Counted from the first letter of the stretch, positions 1 through 7,800 are shown. The stretch is DNA of 64,000 bases from Actinomycetota bacterium (GCA_016870515.1 VGBL01000007.1:59619-123618), one strand, 5' to 3'. A program made the numbers and translations. The notes: generated by a model not told the origin, from the sequence alone.

Positions 1-631
1 ATACGGCGTCTGCGGGCCCGAGGAGTCCGACGATGGCGGCCGCGCTTGTGGTGTTGCCGATGCCCATGTCACCGACGATGACAAGGTCGGCGCCAGCGTC
101 GATCTCGTCATCGGCCACGGCCACTCCGGCATCGAAGGACTGCTGCGCCTCCCCGAGCGTCATAGCATCCTCGCGGTCGATTGAGCCGCTGCCGCGTCGC
201 ACCCGGTAGCGCGTGACATCGGGAGCGAGGTCGTCGGCGTAGGACGGATCGGCGTCGACTCCGAGGTCGACGACGCGAACGCGGGCGCCGACGCTTCGAG
301 CGAGAGCATTGGCGGCTGCGCGCTCCGACAGGAACGTGCGCACCATCTGGGCGGTGACCTCGGGAGGGTAGGCCGACGTGCGCGCGGTGCGTGCGACGCC
401 GTGGTCGGCCGCGATGATGATCAGCGTCGGACGCTGCGGAGGTGGCGGGGGACACTGGCCGCGCACGGACGCCCACCACGTGCCGAGTGCCTCCAGTCGG
501 CCGAGGGCCCCCGTGGGCTTGGTGAGCGAGTCCCAGCGCTCGGTCGCGGCCTCGGCCATGGCTCGATCCGGAGCCTCGATGCGCGGGACGATGTCAGCCA
601 AGCCCGACAGGGACGGCGCGTTGTCGCTCAT
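1..631 (-). CDS. cobT: CobT, nicotinate-nucleotide--dimethylbenzimidazole phosphoribosyltransferase (partial)
   Basis: Activates the lower ligand base of cobalamin by moving phosphoribose from nicotinate mononucleotide to dimethylbenzimidazole. My translation starts MSDNAPSLSG, then shows the family stretches LTKPTGALGRLE and AADHGVA, and near the window edge GDMGIGNTTSAAA. About 210 N-terminal residues are present; the C-terminal part, with the catalytic glutamate of this family, lies beyond base 1. The ATG overlaps the TGA of the CobU gene by 4 nt, so it is the last visible gene of the riboswitch operon. The ORF track misses it because the frame is open at the edge. A cobS gene beyond the edge is likely but not seen. 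Confidence 0.93.
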   Translation of the reverse strand, partial: MSDNAPSLSGLADIVPRIEAPDRAMAEAATERWDSLTKPTGALGRLEALGTWWASVRGQCPPPPPQRPTLIIIAADHGVARTARTSAYPPEVTAQMVRTFLSERAAANALARSVGARVRVVDLGVDADPSYADDLAPDVTRYRVRRGSGSIDREDAMTLGEAQQSFDAGVAVADDEIDAGADLVIVGDMGIGNTTSAAAIVGLLGPADAV

Positions 632-2025
632 CGTCGACCGCCCGCGATGGCGAGGGGGCGGCCGCCGACCATGAGCACGGTCTCGTCGCACACCGCGCCC
701 ACCTGCTGGTGCAGTCGCCCGAGGAGGTCGACGAAGAGTCGCGTTGACGCCGACATCGGCACGACGCCCATGCCGAGCTCATTGCTCACGAGCAGGACGG
801 TGGCGTGACAGGCGGTCAGCGCATCGACGAGGTCCTTGGCGGCGTCGTCGGCGGAGGCCATGAGGTGACCGCGGTCGACGAGGTCCCAGTCTGCGCCGTC
901 GGCCGCGTCGTCGAGCACGCCGGTGAGCCACAGCGTCAGGCAGTCCACCAGCACCGCCTGCGACGGACCGGCCTGTCGAAGGACGTCCACGAGCGCACGG
1001 TGGCCCTCCACCGTCGCCCATGCGATCGGACGACGGGCGCGATGATGCGCGATGCGCTCATCCCACTCGGCATCGCCCGATCGGGGGGCCGCGGTCGCGA
1101 CGTAGGTCACGTCACCCAGGGCGAGTGCGCGGCGTTCGGCCTCGCTGGACTTGCCCGACCGTGCGCCACCGAGGATCAGGGTGCGGGTCGCGCGTCCGAG
1201 CACGGTGCCGTCGTCGACGAGTCGGACGCCGATCTCGGCGAGCCGGGCCCGGAGCACTTCCCTCGGGGGGTTGTGGTGGCTCAGGTGCACCGCGATGACG
1301 TCGCCGTCGTCGGCAATGGCACCGACGTCGCGCAGCGCCGCTAGTGCGTGCGGGAGCGTGGCCAGGTCGAGGTGTCCGGTGCGGTGGTCGACGTGGTCGC
1401 CGAACGTTTCCTCGATGAGCACGAGGTCGGCACTTGCCCGCGTCAGTGCTGCCACCGTCGAGTCGGGCAGCGGGCCGGTGTCGGTCAGGTAGAGCAGGCG
1501 CGAGCCCCGGGTGTCGGTGACGTCGAGGAGCACGCTGTCGGCGGCGATGTCGTCGTGGCTGCCGCCGAAGAGCGCCGCATTATGCGCCGCGGCGTGCACG
1601 CGCGCGTGCCACGTGCCCTCGGGAGTGTCGAGAGCGATCATGTCGCCGGGCCCGACGTCGTGGAACTCCACCGGCGTGTGGGGTCCGACCCAGTCCGTGC
1701 ACGCTAGTCGTACGCTCGGCGGTCCCCACACATGCACGGTGTGGGGCGTGGGATTCCACGAAAGCCACAGCAGCAGAGCCGGATCGAGGTGGTCGGGATG
1801 CGCGTGCGTGACGAGCACGTGGTGGACGTCGCGCAGCGATCGGCCCGCGCGCGCGACGGCGCCGGGCACGGCGGGACCGGCGTCGAGGAGCACGTGATGG
1901 CCGAGCAGGGCGGCCGTCGGCAGTCGTACTTCGCCGCGTGCGCGTGCGTCAGCGCATGACAGGCACAGGCAAAAGGGACTAGGCCAGCCGTCGGCGGCAC
2001 CGGTGCCGAGGAGCAGGACCTCCAT
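628..2025 (-). CDS. cobU: MBL-fold hydrolase fused to CobU (adenosylcobinamide kinase/guanylyltransferase)
   Basis: A 465-residue two-domain protein. Residues 1 to about 275 are a metallo-beta-lactamase fold with the metal motif THAHPDHLD. Residues from about 282 to the end are CobU, with P-loop GGARSGKSS, the HHRARRP segment carrying candidate guanylylated histidines, CLTLWLTG and VSNELGMG. CobU phosphorylates adenosylcobinamide and transfers GMP to it before CobS joins it to the CobT product. The ORF track runs upstream to 3267, but that extension is a shadow of the ABC ATPase. The ATG at 2025 overlaps the upstream stop as TGATG. I recall similar fusions in other actinobacteria. The MBL substrate is unknown. 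Confidence 0.92.
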   Translation of the reverse strand: MEVLLLGTGAADGWPSPFCLCLSCADARARGEVRLPTAALLGHHVLLDAGPAVPGAVARAGRSLRDVHHVLVTHAHPDHLDPALLLWLSWNPTPHTVHVWGPPSVRLACTDWVGPHTPVEFHDVGPGDMIALDTPEGTWHARVHAAAHNAALFGGSHDDIAADSVLLDVTDTRGSRLLYLTDTGPLPDSTVAALTRASADLVLIEETFGDHVDHRTGHLDLATLPHALAALRDVGAIADDGDVIAVHLSHHNPPREVLRARLAEIGVRLVDDGTVLGRATRTLILGGARSGKSSEAERRALALGDVTYVATAAPRSGDAEWDERIAHHRARRPIAWATVEGHRALVDVLRQAGPSQAVLVDCLTLWLTGVLDDAADGADWDLVDRGHLMASADDAAKDLVDALTACHATVLLVSNELGMGVVPMSASTRLFVDLLGRLHQQVGAVCDETVLMVGGRPLAIAGGRR

Positions 2026-2855
2026 CAGCGTCGGCTCTCGGCCAGCGGGGGAGCGATGAACTCCACCGAGGGCGCGAAGTTGGCACGTCGTGCGGTGCGC
2101 CGCAATGCGGTGAGCACCGGTCGCCCGACCAGGAGGATGACCACCGCCGTCAGCACCCCGCGCGGGATGTCCCAGCCCAGTGACGTCACGAGTGAGAACG
2201 CGAGCCAGCGCGCGCGGTTGTCGGAGATTGGAGCGCCCGGATCGAACAGGATGCCCTCGGCGTAGGAGGCGGATTCCATGCCGCTGAGGAACGGCCAGAA
2301 CCACAGGTTCATCACCAGACCGTAGGCTATCGATGCGACCATGCCGTAGGCCGCGAGCGTGGCGACCTCCGGGCGCCCGCGAAGCGGAGGAAGCAGTCCG
2401 GCACCGAGTCCGACCCAAGCCGCCGCGATCATCTGAAACGGCAGCCATGGGCCCACGCCGCCCGTGATCAGCGCGGACGAGGCCAGTGACAGCGAGCCCA
2501 GTGCGAACCCGAATCCGGGCCCGAGTGCGCGGCCGCCGAGGATGATGACGAACCAGATGGGCTCGAGGCCCGCGGTGCCCGCGCCCAGTGGTCGCAGCGC
2601 GGTGACGACGGCGGCGAGTACACCGAGGATCGCGATCGACTTGGCGTCCATGCCGCCCTCCGCGATCTGCGCGAGCACGACGAGCAGCACGAGCGGGATC
2701 ACGGCCGCGAAGACCCACGGCGCGTCCGATGCGTGCGCGACGGCCGCCGAACCAGCCTCGGCGAGGAATGGCCACCCGAAGGCCAGCAGGCCCACGGCCG
2801 TGGCCAGGCCGACAGCGGCCCACGACCAGGGCCCCATGCGCACGGCGGTGCTCAT
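2025..2855 (-). CDS. ECF transporter substrate-binding (S) component, probably for a corrinoid
   Basis: A 276-residue integral membrane protein with several hydrophobic helices and few charged residues, followed by a basic C-terminus. The start MSTAVRMGPW is chosen because its ATG overlaps the stop of the ATPase gene as ATGA; the track start at 2918 lies inside that gene. S components bind the vitamin and dock onto the EcfT/EcfA module encoded just upstream. The cobalamin riboswitch and the flanking cobU/cobT genes point to cobalamin or cobinamide (CbrT-like). Cobalt is the alternative, but no CbiM/CbiN-like protein is seen. The substrate is inferred from context only. Confidence 0.8.
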   Translation of the reverse strand: MSTAVRMGPWSWAAVGLATAVGLLAFGWPFLAEAGSAAVAHASDAPWVFAAVIPLVLLVVLAQIAEGGMDAKSIAILGVLAAVVTALRPLGAGTAGLEPIWFVIILGGRALGPGFGFALGSLSLASSALITGGVGPWLPFQMIAAAWVGLGAGLLPPLRGRPEVATLAAYGMVASIAYGLVMNLWFWPFLSGMESASYAEGILFDPGAPISDNRARWLAFSLVTSLGWDIPRGVLTAVVILLVGRPVLTALRRTARRANFAPSVEFIAPPLAESRR

Positions 2856-4471
2856 CCGGCGACTCCCAGTGCGGCCGCGACAGCCGGAACCGTGAGCGGC
2901 ACGCGCTCTCCGGGGCATGTCGCGAGCACCTTCGCCACCTGCGGAGCAAAGAGCGGCGACCCGATAACGACCTGCGGAGTGGGACCGTCGGCAACCACCT
3001 CGCCATCAGCGAGCACGACCACGCGGGTGGCGACGTCGGCGACCAGTTCGACGTCATGCGTGGCGATGACCACCGCGTGGCCTCGCGCCGCGAGCCCGCG
3101 CAGGATCTCGGCAAGGCGCGCCTTGGTCGGGTAGTCGAGTCCGCGCGTGGGCTCATCGAGCAGCAGCACCGCAGGCTCGGCCACGAGCACGATGGCCAGC
3201 GCAAGGGCAAGGCGCTGTCCCTCCGACAGGTCGCGCGGGTGGGCGTCGAGATCGATCTCGGGTGCAAGATCGGCTAGCAGGCCCGCGGTGCTGCCCTCGG
3301 CGCAGTGCGCATCGCGGTCGGCATCGCGGCATTCGGCACCGACGGTGTCGCGACTGAGCAGGTCGGCGGAATCTTGCGGGACGAGCCCGATGCGACCGAT
3401 GAGCTTCGGCCCGCGCAGGGTCGCCGGATCGATCCCGGCAATGCGCACGGTGCCCGCATCGGGTCGGCGGAGCCCGACCAGTGTCGAAAGCAGGGTCGAC
3501 TTGCCGGCGCCGTTGCGCCCCATGAGCGCGATGACCTCGCCCTGCGACACCTTAAGGGTGATGCCACGCAGTGCCGGGATCTGCCCGTAGGACGCGCGCG
3601 TGCGATCGATGGAGACGACGCGTGCGCCGGTCGCCGGCTCATGGTCAACAGCGACGTCGGCCAGACGGTCGCGCAGCGCTCCCGCCTGTCGTCGCGCGTC
3701 GCGCACGGATAGGGGCAGAGGTTGCCAGTGGGCGAGCCGCCCGAGATGGACGACCGGTGGCGCGACGGGCGAGGTCTGCATGGTCGGGCCCGGCTCGCCG
3801 AGGATGGGCGGGCGTCCGTCGCCGGGGATCAGCAAGATGCGGTCGGCGTATTCCAGGACGCGCTCGAGGCGATGCTCAGCCATGACGACGGTGACCCCGA
3901 GATCGTGGACGAGGCGCTGCAGGGTGGCCAGGACCTCCTCGGCGGCACCCGGATCGAGTGCGCTCGTCGGCTCGTCGAGGACGAGTACGCGCGGATGCGC
4001 CGTGAGGACGGCACCGATCGCCACGCGTTGGCACTGTCCTCCCGACAGGCTGAGCAGCGGTCGGTCGCGCACGTCGGCCAGGCCGAGCAGGTCGAGCGTC
4101 TCCTCCACCCGTCGGCGCATCGTGCCAGCGTCGATGCCGAGGCACTCCATGCTGTAGGCGAGTTCCTCTTCGACCGTGTCGGTGACGAAGCTCGACATCG
4201 GATCCTGCGGCACCATGCCGATGATGTCGGCAAGGTCGCGCGGGTGGTGGGCGGAGGTGTCGCGGCCGTCGACTGTGACCCGACCCTGGAGCGTGCCTCC
4301 GGTGAAGTGGGGGACCAGGCCGTTGATCGCGCGAAGGAGTGTCGACTTGCCGCTGCCGGTGCGTCCCACGACGAGGACGAGTTCGCCCTCCTGGATGTGC
4401 AGGTCGGCGTCGATGAGCGCGGGCGACGCTGCGCCCTCGTAGGTGATGGTGACGTGGTCGAAGCGGATCAT
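2852..4471 (-). CDS. ECF transporter energy-coupling ATPase with two fused ABC domains
   Basis: A 539-residue protein with two complete ABC ATPase domains. The first has P-loop GRTGSGKS near residue 36, signature LSGGQ and Walker B VLVLDEPT. The second has P-loop GRNGAGKS, signature LSEGQ and Walker B VLLLDEPT. It hydrolyses ATP on the inner membrane face to drive the ECF importer; one gene replaces the usual EcfA/EcfA' pair. The start MIRFDHVTI at 4471 overlaps the EcfT stop as ATGA. The 640-residue track ORF begins inside ecfT and is too long. Confidence 0.94.
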   Translation of the reverse strand: MIRFDHVTITYEGAASPALIDADLHIQEGELVLVVGRTGSGKSTLLRAINGLVPHFTGGTLQGRVTVDGRDTSAHHPRDLADIIGMVPQDPMSSFVTDTVEEELAYSMECLGIDAGTMRRRVEETLDLLGLADVRDRPLLSLSGGQCQRVAIGAVLTAHPRVLVLDEPTSALDPGAAEEVLATLQRLVHDLGVTVVMAEHRLERVLEYADRILLIPGDGRPPILGEPGPTMQTSPVAPPVVHLGRLAHWQPLPLSVRDARRQAGALRDRLADVAVDHEPATGARVVSIDRTRASYGQIPALRGITLKVSQGEVIALMGRNGAGKSTLLSTLVGLRRPDAGTVRIAGIDPATLRGPKLIGRIGLVPQDSADLLSRDTVGAECRDADRDAHCAEGSTAGLLADLAPEIDLDAHPRDLSEGQRLALALAIVLVAEPAVLLLDEPTRGLDYPTKARLAEILRGLAARGHAVVIATHDVELVADVATRVVVLADGEVVADGPTPQVVIGSPLFAPQVAKVLATCPGERVPLTVPAVAAALGVAG

Positions 4472-5571
4472 GCGCCTACCGCCTCGCGGGTCAGCCCGAC
4501 AGGAATGCGCGGGCGCGGCAGCGGCGGCGTGATCACGGCGGGGAGCACGCTGACCAGGATGCCGATGACCGCCAGGGGCGGCACCGCTGGCCAGGCGGGC
4601 GGGTCGACGGGAGCGACAAGCCCGGTCATGCCCATGGCGCTCGCCGCGAGGAAGGTGCTGGCCGTGACGAGGGCGCATGCCGCGACGCCCCACTCGGGCC
4701 AGGCCCACGGGTCGGGCCGGTACCGCGTGCGCGTGGACCGACGACCCGCGAGAGCGAAGCCGACCAGGCCGCATGCCAGGCCGACCGCCAGCATGGGTAG
4801 TCCGAGGTAGGCCGGAGCGGAGGCATCGAGCAGGGCGTAGACGCCGATGATGAGCGCGACGAGGCCGATGAGCAGTGCTGCGGTCGTGGCGCGGCGTACG
4901 CCGGGACTGCGTTCGGCCTGCCTACCGTATCCGCGCGAGTCCATGGCGGCGGCCAACGCGACCGAGCGTTCGAGGGCACCCTCGAGCACGGGCACCGCGG
5001 CCCGTGCCGCGCCGCGCACACCTCCCTCGGGCCGACCGCGAAGGCGGCGCGTGGCACGCACGCGGTCGAGATCGGCGACGAGTTGTGGGGCGAAGGTGAC
5101 GGCGACGACGACGGAGACGCCGAACTCGTACAGCGCCGCGGGGATGGCCTTGAGCAGGCGCGCGGGCGACGCCAGCGAGTTGGCGGCGCCAACACACGCG
5201 AGGATCGTCGCCAGGCGCAGGCCGTCGTAGATCGCCGCCAGGATCGACTCGGCCGTGACTGGACCACCGAGGCGCACGCCCGCAAGGACGTCGGGAAGCG
5301 TGACGGAGGGAAGCGTGAACAGCACCGTGACCCCGATGGGTGCGGCGACGATCACCTGGAACACCACGCGGATGGCGATGACGATCAGGCCGATGCGCAG
5401 GAAGACGCCGAATGACCGCGACCACGGGGCCCTGGGTCGGCGAGCAGCCACGACCAGGCCCGCGACCGCGATGATCAGCAGGAGAAGGAGCGGGTTGTTG
5501 ATGCGCGATGCCGCGATGGCCAGCCCCGTGGCCCACAGCCACCAGGCGCCCGGGTGCAGCATGCGCGGCAT
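4468..5571 (-). CDS. ECF transporter transmembrane coupling protein EcfT
   Basis: A 367-residue CbiQ/EcfT-family membrane protein. Hydrophobic N-terminal helices are followed by a cytoplasmic coupling region with the typical arginine-rich segments (RATRRLRGRP, then SVALAAAMDSRGYG), which contacts both ATPase domains. More membrane helices follow, so it is longer at the C-terminus than a minimal EcfT. ATG 5571 overlaps the preceding stop as TGATG; GTG 5574 is also possible. It joins the ATPase to the S component encoded two genes downstream. Confidence 0.9.
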   Translation of the reverse strand: MPRMLHPGAWWLWATGLAIAASRINNPLLLLLIIAVAGLVVAARRPRAPWSRSFGVFLRIGLIVIAIRVVFQVIVAAPIGVTVLFTLPSVTLPDVLAGVRLGGPVTAESILAAIYDGLRLATILACVGAANSLASPARLLKAIPAALYEFGVSVVVAVTFAPQLVADLDRVRATRRLRGRPEGGVRGAARAAVPVLEGALERSVALAAAMDSRGYGRQAERSPGVRRATTAALLIGLVALIIGVYALLDASAPAYLGLPMLAVGLACGLVGFALAGRRSTRTRYRPDPWAWPEWGVAACALVTASTFLAASAMGMTGLVAPVDPPAWPAVPPLAVIGILVSVLPAVITPPLPRPRIPVGLTREAVGA

Positions 5572-6479
5572 CACGGCGATCTCCGGCGCATGAGCACGAC
5601 GGCACCGCCTCCGATGACCCCGATGCCCAGGACGGCGGCCCCGACGCCGAGCGCACTGCCACCCTCACCCGGGTCGGATGTGACGGGACCGGCGAGGACC
5701 GACAGGGAGGGCGACGGCGTCGGCGTGGGCTCGGGTGTCCTGGTGGCGGTGGGAGACGGAGTGGGCGAGGAAGAGGTCGTGCGTTGTGGCGACGGCATTG
5801 TCACCACGGCTGCGCTGGGCGTGGCGGTGGTGGCCGTGGCGCCCGCGCCACCGGTGGCCGGTGCCGAAGTCGGAGTTGCCGTTGGCGCTGGCCGTGGGGA
5901 CTTCGTGGGTGCCGGTGTCGTCGTGGGCTCTGGCGTTGTGCTCGGCTTCGGCGAAAGGCTCGGCTTCGGCGTTGGCTCGTCCACCACGACCGCGCACTCG
6001 CGCGCGGGGTAGCCGCCGATGGAGCAGATGAGTCCGTCGTCGACCCGCACCGAAGCAGCGGCACGGAGTATGTCGTAGCCGCTGGCACGCGTGTCGGCGA
6101 CGACGCACAGTGCCCAGGCGCCGGGAGGCTGCTCGCCGTCGGGCGCATCCTGCGCAAGTCCGGGATCGACGATGACGGCGACGCGCTTGCGTCCCTCTTG
6201 CGCGGGAGTTTCGAAGCACACCGTCTCGAAGTCGGGTGCGAAGCTGGGCCGGTCATTGCCGGCAACGCCGCTCACGGAGAAGCGCCATCCGTCGACAGTG
6301 CCGTCGGCCGGCACGCGCGACGACGGACCGACGTTGGCAAAACCCCACTGGCCGTCGGCTCCCAGCCAGTACGACCAGTAGCGATAGGCCGCCGCCTGGG
6401 CCGCGGTGGCGGTCATCACCGGCGCGAGAGCGGCCGCGACGACGATGATCGTCGCCGCGAGGACTCGCCGGTGGGCCAT
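5571..6479 (-). CDS. SCO2322-like secreted, C-terminally membrane-anchored protein
   Basis: A 302-residue protein with a signal peptide (MAHRRVLAATIIV...AAQAAA) and a globular N-terminal domain rich in Tyr, Trp and Gly (YRYWSYWLG, DGTVDGWRF) with a few cysteines. A long Pro/Thr/Ser low-complexity stalk follows from about residue 165 to 265, then a C-terminal hydrophobic helix ending in RRRSP. It should sit on the outer membrane face with its globular domain held out by the stalk. It matches what I recall as the SCO2322 family, which neighbours ECF genes in streptomycetes. No enzymatic motif is seen. Its place in a B12 operon suggests a surface receptor or docking role, which is inference. Confidence 0.78.
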   Translation of the reverse strand: MAHRRVLAATIIVVAAALAPVMTATAAQAAAYRYWSYWLGADGQWGFANVGPSSRVPADGTVDGWRFSVSGVAGNDRPSFAPDFETVCFETPAQEGRKRVAVIVDPGLAQDAPDGEQPPGAWALCVVADTRASGYDILRAAASVRVDDGLICSIGGYPARECAVVVDEPTPKPSLSPKPSTTPEPTTTPAPTKSPRPAPTATPTSAPATGGAGATATTATPSAAVVTMPSPQRTTSSSPTPSPTATRTPEPTPTPSPSLSVLAGPVTSDPGEGGSALGVGAAVLGIGVIGGGAVVLMRRRSP

Positions 6480-6490
6480 GGTCGTCGCCC

Positions 6491-7567
6491 CTACTTCTGC
6501 AGCGTCGCGAGGAGTCGGGCCGGGAGGTCGATGCCGCCGAAGTCGCGAGGATCCTCGCTCGCGGCAATCGCGGCGAGGGTGAGGGTGCCGAGGGCGGCGG
6601 GCCGGTCGGAGGTCCCGTCATTGATGTAGGCCTCGGCGTTCTCCGTGAGCGCGGCGACGGCGAGCGTCGTCGCCCTGCCCGATGTGCGCGTGGCCACGAG
6701 GCCGATGACACCGAGGGCCGTGGAGTTCCAGTCGGCTTCGCCGGGCGCGAAGGCGTTGGGAAGCCAGCCGCGACTGGCGGTGATCTGCGCGGCGATCCAT
6801 CGCGCCGTTGCCGACGACGCGTCAGTGGGGCGACCCGCTGAGTCGCAGATCACCTTGGGCGCGGCCTTGCGCTGCGTTCGAGGGACGAGGGCGAACGCGT
6901 CAGCCAGGCCGAGCAGTCCCTGCGTGGTTGACAACGCGTCGGGCAGGCTGCCGGCCATGTAGGGCAGGCCACCCACCTGCACCGGTTCGGCGGTGCAGCC
7001 GTACACCGTGCGGCGCAAGTACCTCGAGGCGTGTTGACGTACCCTTTTTGTCCCGTCGATCAGGCCGAGAGCGGCGATGGCCAGGCCGGTCGAGTTGGTG
7101 TCGGCCGCACCGCCCGCGAAGTAGGGGAAGCCGCCTCCGCGGGTCTGCTGCTGGCGCAGCCAGTCCTGCGCCGCCACGGCCGCCAACTCGGCGTCCTGCC
7201 CATTGCCGGTGATCGTCAAGGCAGCCAGCGCCAGGGCCGTGGAATTCGTATCAGGTCCGGTGTAGGTCGCAGGATCGGAGGGCGGGCACGGCACCGACGT
7301 GTCCGCCCGGTAGCCCATGAAGGACCCGTCCGCGCACTGCTGCTCGACCAGCCACGCGATGGCGCTGTCGGGCACATCGGCCCCGGCGCCCATCAGCCCC
7401 ATGAGCGCGTAGCTCTGGCGATAGACACCGTCGTACGTCGGATCCGACGACCCGAACAGCCCGGCATCGCTCGACGCCGTGCGAACGGGTCCTGCGGAGG
7501 CAGGCGAGATAGCGCTGGTTGCCACTAGTAGGCAGGCGATGACGACGCCGACAACTCGAAACTTCAC
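6491..7567 (-). CDS. Secreted prenyltransferase/squalene-oxidase-repeat (alpha/alpha barrel) protein, possible corrinoid binder
   Basis: A 358-residue protein with a signal peptide (ends SAISPASAGP). Repeats such as DTNSTALALAAL, DTNSTGLAIAAL, DALSTTQGLLGL and DWNSTALGVIGL mark an alpha/alpha toroid of the kind shared by squalene cyclases and the alpha domain of animal intrinsic factor/transcobalamin. The cyclase DXDD motif is not seen, so a binding role is more likely than catalysis. GTG 7567 follows CCTTGGAG with good spacing and is the first gene after the cobalamin riboswitch. That placement supports corrinoid binding outside the membrane for the ECF importer; this is inference. Confidence 0.85.
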   Translation of the reverse strand: MKFRVVGVVIACLLVATSAISPASAGPVRTASSDAGLFGSSDPTYDGVYRQSYALMGLMGAGADVPDSAIAWLVEQQCADGSFMGYRADTSVPCPPSDPATYTGPDTNSTALALAALTITGNGQDAELAAVAAQDWLRQQQTRGGGFPYFAGGAADTNSTGLAIAALGLIDGTKRVRQHASRYLRRTVYGCTAEPVQVGGLPYMAGSLPDALSTTQGLLGLADAFALVPRTQRKAAPKVICDSAGRPTDASSATARWIAAQITASRGWLPNAFAPGEADWNSTALGVIGLVATRTSGRATTLAVAALTENAEAYINDGTSDRPAALGTLTLAAIAASEDPRDFGGIDLPARLLATLQK

Positions 7568-7619
7568 TCGTACTCCAAGGTGAGCGACCTACTTGGCGGT
7601 GGGGCCGCTTCGGGGACAC

Positions 7620-7800
7620 TCGTCCCTGGAGTAGCTGCCACGCCCCGCAGACCTCGACGGGGTGAATGCCGGATGGCATCCACTAGGCGCTCGCGCCCGC
7701 CAGGTGCTCCGACTTGCCGCTGGGGCGGCTCACGGTTGCGGGTCAGTGCCGGAATCTCACCGGCTTCCCCTGGACATCGGGCGCGTTTGTTCAGTTGTGG
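7620..7800 (-). ncRNA. Cobalamin (AdoCbl-type) riboswitch
   Basis: Read on the minus strand, 7730-7770 contains the conserved core: GGGAAGCCGGTGAGATTCC, then GGCACTGACCCGCAACCGTGA. It is followed by AAGTCGGAGCACC at about 7700-7715. These are the B12-box features of the cobalamin riboswitch family. It lies about 60 nt upstream of the secreted alpha/alpha-barrel gene and should repress the whole transport and assembly operon when cobalamin is plentiful. A possible promoter upstream is TTGACT, 18 nt, TCGGAT (about 7801-7831). The outer limits are approximate because peripheral helices were not folded. Confidence 0.93.

Follow-up and report, generated by a model that had tools for sequence, protein, structure and literature searches.

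What does a bacterium capture at its surface when two exported proteins, an importer and nucleotide-loop genes stand together behind one cobalamin riboswitch? The question is raised by a minus-strand operon at one end of a 64,000-nucleotide stretch of Actinomycetota DNA (the window), which a preliminary description had read as a two-part extracellular B12 receptor feeding an ECF transporter. A general precedent exists: Burroughs et al. defined the SLBB superfamily in 2007 (PMC1796856), and B12 scavenging was then proposed for bacterial SLBB-toroid proteins encoded in operons with CbiO and CbiQ, the groups listed being low-GC Gram-positives (Firmicutes), planctomycetes and euryarchaea (PMC1796856).

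Results

The operon leader contains an AdoCbl-II class cobalamin riboswitch aptamer (7694-7783; Rfam RF01689, 42.2 bits for a gathering score of 36.5 bits), which a custom covariance model, R1, places at 7690-7788. Behind it, and like it on the minus strand, lie the genes of P0001, a secreted SCO2321-like alpha/alpha-toroid of 358 residues (6491-7567), and of P0002, a stalked surface protein (5571-6479) with an SCO2322 domain (5970-6398). The riboswitch, the secreted barrel and the SCO2322-like protein had all been named in the preliminary description, and each was recovered above the cut-off of its model (the last two are detailed below). They are followed, still on the minus strand, by an EcfT/CbiQ-type transmembrane coupling protein (4468-5571; PF02361, 26.8 bits, cut-off 25), an EcfA with two fused ABC ATPase domains (2852-4471; ABC_tran over two stretches, ECF_ATPase_2 with 289 bits), a membrane protein taken to be the S component (2025-2855), a fusion of an MBL-fold hydrolase with CobU (628-2025; PF12706 with 48.1 bits and PF02283 with 173.4 bits in one open reading frame) and CobT, the DMB phosphoribosyltransferase (2-628; PF02277, 202.3 bits). 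The cobU and cobT genes expected from the preliminary description are thus both present, with the qualifications that CobU is fused to another domain and that CobT runs out of the window; CobS comes after CobT, just outside (G000:C7:58397-59128).

That the ECF importer is complete, as also claimed, could be upheld by profile models for EcfT and EcfA only. For the S component, neither Pfam nor the solved structures in the PDB gave a sequence match; its assignment rests on gene order and on a hydrophobic sequence conserved among 29 relatives, which occupy the same place in the operon. Because no Pfam model matches it, this protein is, as far as such models can tell, not CbiM; by position and conservation it is probably the corrinoid-specific subunit of the importer. 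The fusion of CobU (adenosylcobinamide kinase/guanylyltransferase) to an N-terminal metallo-beta-lactamase-fold domain also occurs in two other loci (L035:11242-12840 and L045:10789-12861). This domain is weakly PhnP-like (45.9 bits, cut-off 272) and might supply a missing alpha-ribazole phosphate step of nucleotide-loop assembly.

The operon is widely conserved. Among 80 named SCO2322 loci, the toroid gene was present in 73, EcfT in 76, EcfA in 74 and the S component in 67, and the custom covariance model found a cobalamin riboswitch in 71. Of the nine loci without a riboswitch hit, five lie on contigs that break off at the 5' side. Part of the model's training set came from these loci, but cobalamin riboswitches were confirmed independently by Rfam in a sample. 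Since the same order recurs in most of the 80 loci, the gene order is far above chance. The SCO2322 gene was found in 46 of the 60 genomes of the window's order, including all 13 of its family. Had most homologues lain outside the neighbourhood of B12 genes and riboswitches, the receptor proposal would have been refuted; this is not what was observed. In 7 of the 80 loci, of which one is truncated at a contig end, no toroid was seen, so that the toroid is not always needed.

P0002 matched the NCBIfam SCO2322 model (NF040672) with 154 bits over model positions 1-143 (cut-off 85 bits), and its translation, read without a predictor, consists of a signal peptide, the SCO2322 domain, a Pro/Thr-rich stalk and a C-terminal transmembrane helix. 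Four cysteines of the domain (positions 61, 98, 125 and 135) are invariant in 72 relatives, which suggests two extracellular disulfides. When the model was searched in 297 genomes of the phylum, matches above its cut-off were confined to the window's class. Elsewhere, in two genomes from other classes, both halves of the model aligned to a single protein in swapped order (61-140, then 5-61); these relatives, which we call canonical, occupy the same kind of operon, where the domain comes after the toroid or is joined to it in one protein, and their loci also bear the riboswitch. Rotating the SCO2322 family by hand, second half before first, aligned it with the canonical family at an E-value of 2.8e-25 over 127 columns, as against only 61 columns in native order, and a scan of all rotations reached its maximum at the predicted cut (1.5e-25 versus 1.5e-16 for the native order).

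Structure models agree with this rotation. The AlphaFold2 model of the SCO2322 domain (pLDDT 94.3) comprises the elements E4-14, E17-20, E34-42, E70-78, E95-102, H107-114, E117-120 and E123-127, in the order beta4-beta4'-beta5-(h)-beta1-beta2-alpha-beta3-beta3'. This is a rotation of the order modelled for the beta domain of a natural toroid-beta fusion, L144 (E306-312, E321-327, H333-339, E344-349, E352-358, E374-380, E386-389 and E403-409): the beta-beta-alpha-hairpin-beta-beta-beta topology stands in canonical order in the fusion, and P0002 has the same elements rotated. The SCO2322 domain is thus probably a circularly permuted transcobalamin-type beta-grasp (SLBB) domain, for which there are no binding data. 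A Foldseek search of its model in native order found no fold match in the PDB (best E-value 1.5); a missing match would be expected of a permutant, yet it is no positive evidence, and for want of one the canonical fusion was used for the structure search instead.

A similar rotation emerges for P0001. The protein passed the PF00432 alpha-alpha toroid model (28.6 bits, gathering cut-off 26.5) and matched the NCBIfam SCO2321 model (NF053823) over its full length with 195 bits, under the cut-off of 300; by the rule of that model P0001 would count as a relative of SCO2321 and not as a member. By eye, without a predictor, it has an N-terminal signal peptide and no visible C-terminal anchor. A rotation scan against the canonical toroids gave a single peak (E 2e-52 over 293 columns, compared with 3.8e-35 over 196 columns in native order), and a non-repeat DPR-FGG segment (EDPRDFGGIDL) that lies mid-chain in canonical toroids is found at the C-terminus of P0001. 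Judged by these comparisons, P0001, which was itself not folded, is a circular permutant of canonical toroids. Repeats aligned out of register would be a trivial explanation of such a rotation; it is ruled out by the single peak, the near full-length cover and the displaced DPR-FGG segment. Given the rotated profile matches, the rotation-scan peaks and the position of that segment, both P0001 and P0002 are, on sequence grounds, circular permutants of their relatives.

Two arrangements of the canonical system may be mentioned. One genome of the window's class (G172; loci L147, G172:C1:3645000-3664000, and L008, G172:C1:1886254-1889688) has a permuted SCO2322 system and, at a separate place, a system in canonical order in which the toroid gene is found downstream of the S component. 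In L148 (7185-11727), two tandem canonical toroid and beta pairs, each with its own cobalamin riboswitch, precede one ECF set.

In one genus (genomes G163, G248 and G259), the toroid and the beta domain are found on one chain (fusions L143, L144 and L162), which ends in a tail that by eye resembles cell-wall-binding sequences. The L143 fusion (4397-7279) has one toroid, two tandem beta domains and then apparent cell-wall-binding repeats, and is preceded by a second toroid protein without a beta domain (L143:2165-4210). The L144 fusion gave an AlphaFold2 model with a mean pLDDT of 90.9. When this model was compared with 350,542 PDB chains by Foldseek, the best 15 matches were all transcobalamin, haptocorrin or intrinsic factor, with E-values of 3.4e-11 to 2.8e-8 and about 436-468 aligned columns spanning both domains, the next family being the squalene-hopene cyclases, from 1e-5. 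The kinship with intrinsic factor and transcobalamin that had been proposed from the barrel fold is therefore supported beyond a shared barrel. The TM-scores to transcobalamin are only 0.41-0.47 (query-normalised), probably owing to a different domain arrangement in the model, and therefore the claim stands on rank and coverage and not on superposition of the whole chain.

By sequence, the link runs through DUF4430. The canonical beta family matched the DUF4430 profile with a probability of 68 over 101 colinear columns, and DUF4430 matched animal transcobalamin beta domains with a probability of 96.5; compared directly with animal transcobalamin, the canonical beta and toroid families gave weak probabilities of 3 and 26. 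The Pfam DUF4430 model (PF14478) did not match P0002 or five canonical relatives, and sequence searches of the PDB returned no transcobalamin for either the canonical beta profile or P0001; the canonical toroid profile matched cyclases and complement C3. These families cannot be tied to transcobalamin by sequence alone. The succession of a toroid and a beta-grasp domain on one chain is found in the fused relatives only; the window has two genes, both rotated, and its proteins are tied to the fused relative by rotated profile matches, not by a direct structural match. The structural comparison with intrinsic factor and transcobalamin that had been suggested as a check was thus positive for the fused relative L144 and gave no match for the SCO2322 model in native order. 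By computation, both window domains nevertheless belong to a family that, in its fused form, resembles transcobalamin structurally, and P0001 is probably the circularly permuted equivalent of the transcobalamin alpha domain, in the absence of binding data and of a folded model of P0001 itself. The preliminary description had missed P0002 as the transcobalamin beta domain and the permutation of both domains.

Discussion

The operon anatomy, its conservation, the toroid family, the family membership and the circular permutation of both domains were established computationally. We consider it very probable that the operon serves to scavenge corrinoids by means of a split transcobalamin, the ligand, the joint binding and the handover being inferred without binding data. 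In the scheme that we propose, low intracellular AdoCbl would permit expression of the operon through the riboswitch. The toroid P0001 would be exported, its secretion being inferred, and P0002 would likewise be exported and held at the surface by its stalk and transmembrane helix, an anchoring that is also inferred. The two would then hold a corrinoid between them in the manner of the alpha and beta domains in a one-chain transcobalamin, and might pass it on to the importer's S component. Finally, the nucleotide loop (lower ligand) would be completed or remodelled by CobU, CobT and CobS for B12 enzymes. It is tempting to speculate further that the receptor is assembled by its ligand, a free toroid and a tethered beta domain, each permuted, joining around one corrinoid to feed the ECF importer, and that the same operon elsewhere encodes unpermuted halves or one fused transcobalamin; without binding data, our judgement on this more specific proposal is evenly balanced. 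The two-part receptor of the preliminary description thus gains support from operon conservation and from the structure of the fusion, and ligand binding remains an inference.

The most obvious objection is that CbiQ and CbiO genes may import cobalt (or nickel) for B12 synthesis, the exported proteins being incidental or metal-binding. EcfT is indeed of the CbiQ family, and B12 riboswitches frequently control cobalt transporters. We find this reading very unlikely all the same, given that the operon has no CbiM- or CbiN-like protein, that its S component lacks any Pfam match, and that transcobalamin-like proteins would be pointless for the uptake of a free metal. Moreover, neither PF02570 (CobH/CbiC) nor PF02514 (CobN) had a match in the host genome, which is 96.7% complete, leaving no evident corrin-synthesis use for cobalt. 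The genome does have CobU, CobT and CobS as well as two methylmalonyl-CoA mutase proteins and, as far as gene content can indicate, this is the profile of an organism obliged to import corrinoids. A point that we count against scavenging is that the toroid/SCO2322 system is also retained in Streptomyces, a producer of B12 in its own right (PMC4991794). That the toroid is a cell-surface enzyme, akin to terpene cyclases or prenyltransferases, could be argued from its sequence profile, which matches prenyltransferase and squalene-hopene cyclase toroids. We give this hardly any credence: the protein has a signal peptide and by eye no DXDD motif, toroids are fused to or lie beside a beta domain under B12 riboswitches, and in the Foldseek search with the fusion the E-values of the B12 carriers are better than those of the cyclases by some five orders of magnitude.

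More serious is the possibility that the beta-domain protein by itself serves as the corrinoid receptor at the surface and that the toroid is an accessory lid, a chaperone or a shed scavenger and not half of the binding site. No toroid was detected within the fetched flanks of several complete riboswitch-beta-EcfT-EcfA-S loci (L037, L039, L046 and L052 of Kribbella, and L141, L142 and L150), and because of such loci the beta protein may suffice in places, with the toroid as an accessory; besides, P0002 is anchored and P0001 has no visible anchor. However, the three natural fusions and the near-universal adjacency of the two genes imply joint action wherever both exist, and we regard a beta-only receptor as unlikely, though not negligible. 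A split transcobalamin remains our preferred interpretation.

Several known systems resemble parts of this one. The firmicute SLBB/DUF4430 transcobalamin-like proteins (PMC1796856) share an exported SLBB domain and toroid in CbiO/CbiQ operons, but the actinobacterial families fall under the threshold of the DUF4430 model and, in the window's class, are encoded by two genes and permuted circularly. Animal transcobalamin, intrinsic factor and haptocorrin (2bb5, 2bb6, 2pmv and 4kki) likewise combine an alpha/alpha toroid with a beta-grasp domain, and the actinobacterial fusions are colinear with these carriers; unlike them, the window has two proteins, permuted segments, a stalk anchor and a link to an ECF importer, without binding data. 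Of the Streptomyces families in NCBIfam, P0002 passes SCO2322 and P0001 is a full-length relative under the equivalog cut-off of SCO2321; neither family has a function attached. The Bacteroides surface lipoproteins that capture B12 (PMC6143338) also take up corrinoids at the surface upstream of a transporter, but belong to a Gram-negative envelope and have another architecture. An ECF-type vitamin B12 importer is known (PMC5997447), from which the window differs in an S component without a sequence match to solved structures and in its exported, predicted binding proteins. Circular permutation inside the beta-grasp fold has a precedent in the E1 UFD domain (PMC1949818), where the cut falls elsewhere (S1 is shifted to the C-terminus) and the function is unrelated.

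The general idea of B12 scavenging by bacterial toroid-SLBB proteins is therefore already known (PMC1796856). What appears to be new, as far as we could find, is the assignment in actinobacteria, the division into two genes and the circular permutation of both domains: no paper linking SCO2321-SCO2325 to B12 was found, although most subscription journals were outside the search and an earlier mention cannot be excluded.

Two conserved Streptomyces families named only by locus numbers now have a testable function, and the fused form is the obvious construct for structural and binding work. The bacterial kin of human intrinsic factor and transcobalamin is widened past the groups listed in 2007, and the series of one-chain fusions, unpermuted pairs, permuted pairs and beta-only systems should help to understand how a ligand clamp of two domains came to be split and rotated. 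More broadly, the findings suggest how extracellular corrinoids are captured in much of the Actinomycetota, including Streptomyces and its relatives.
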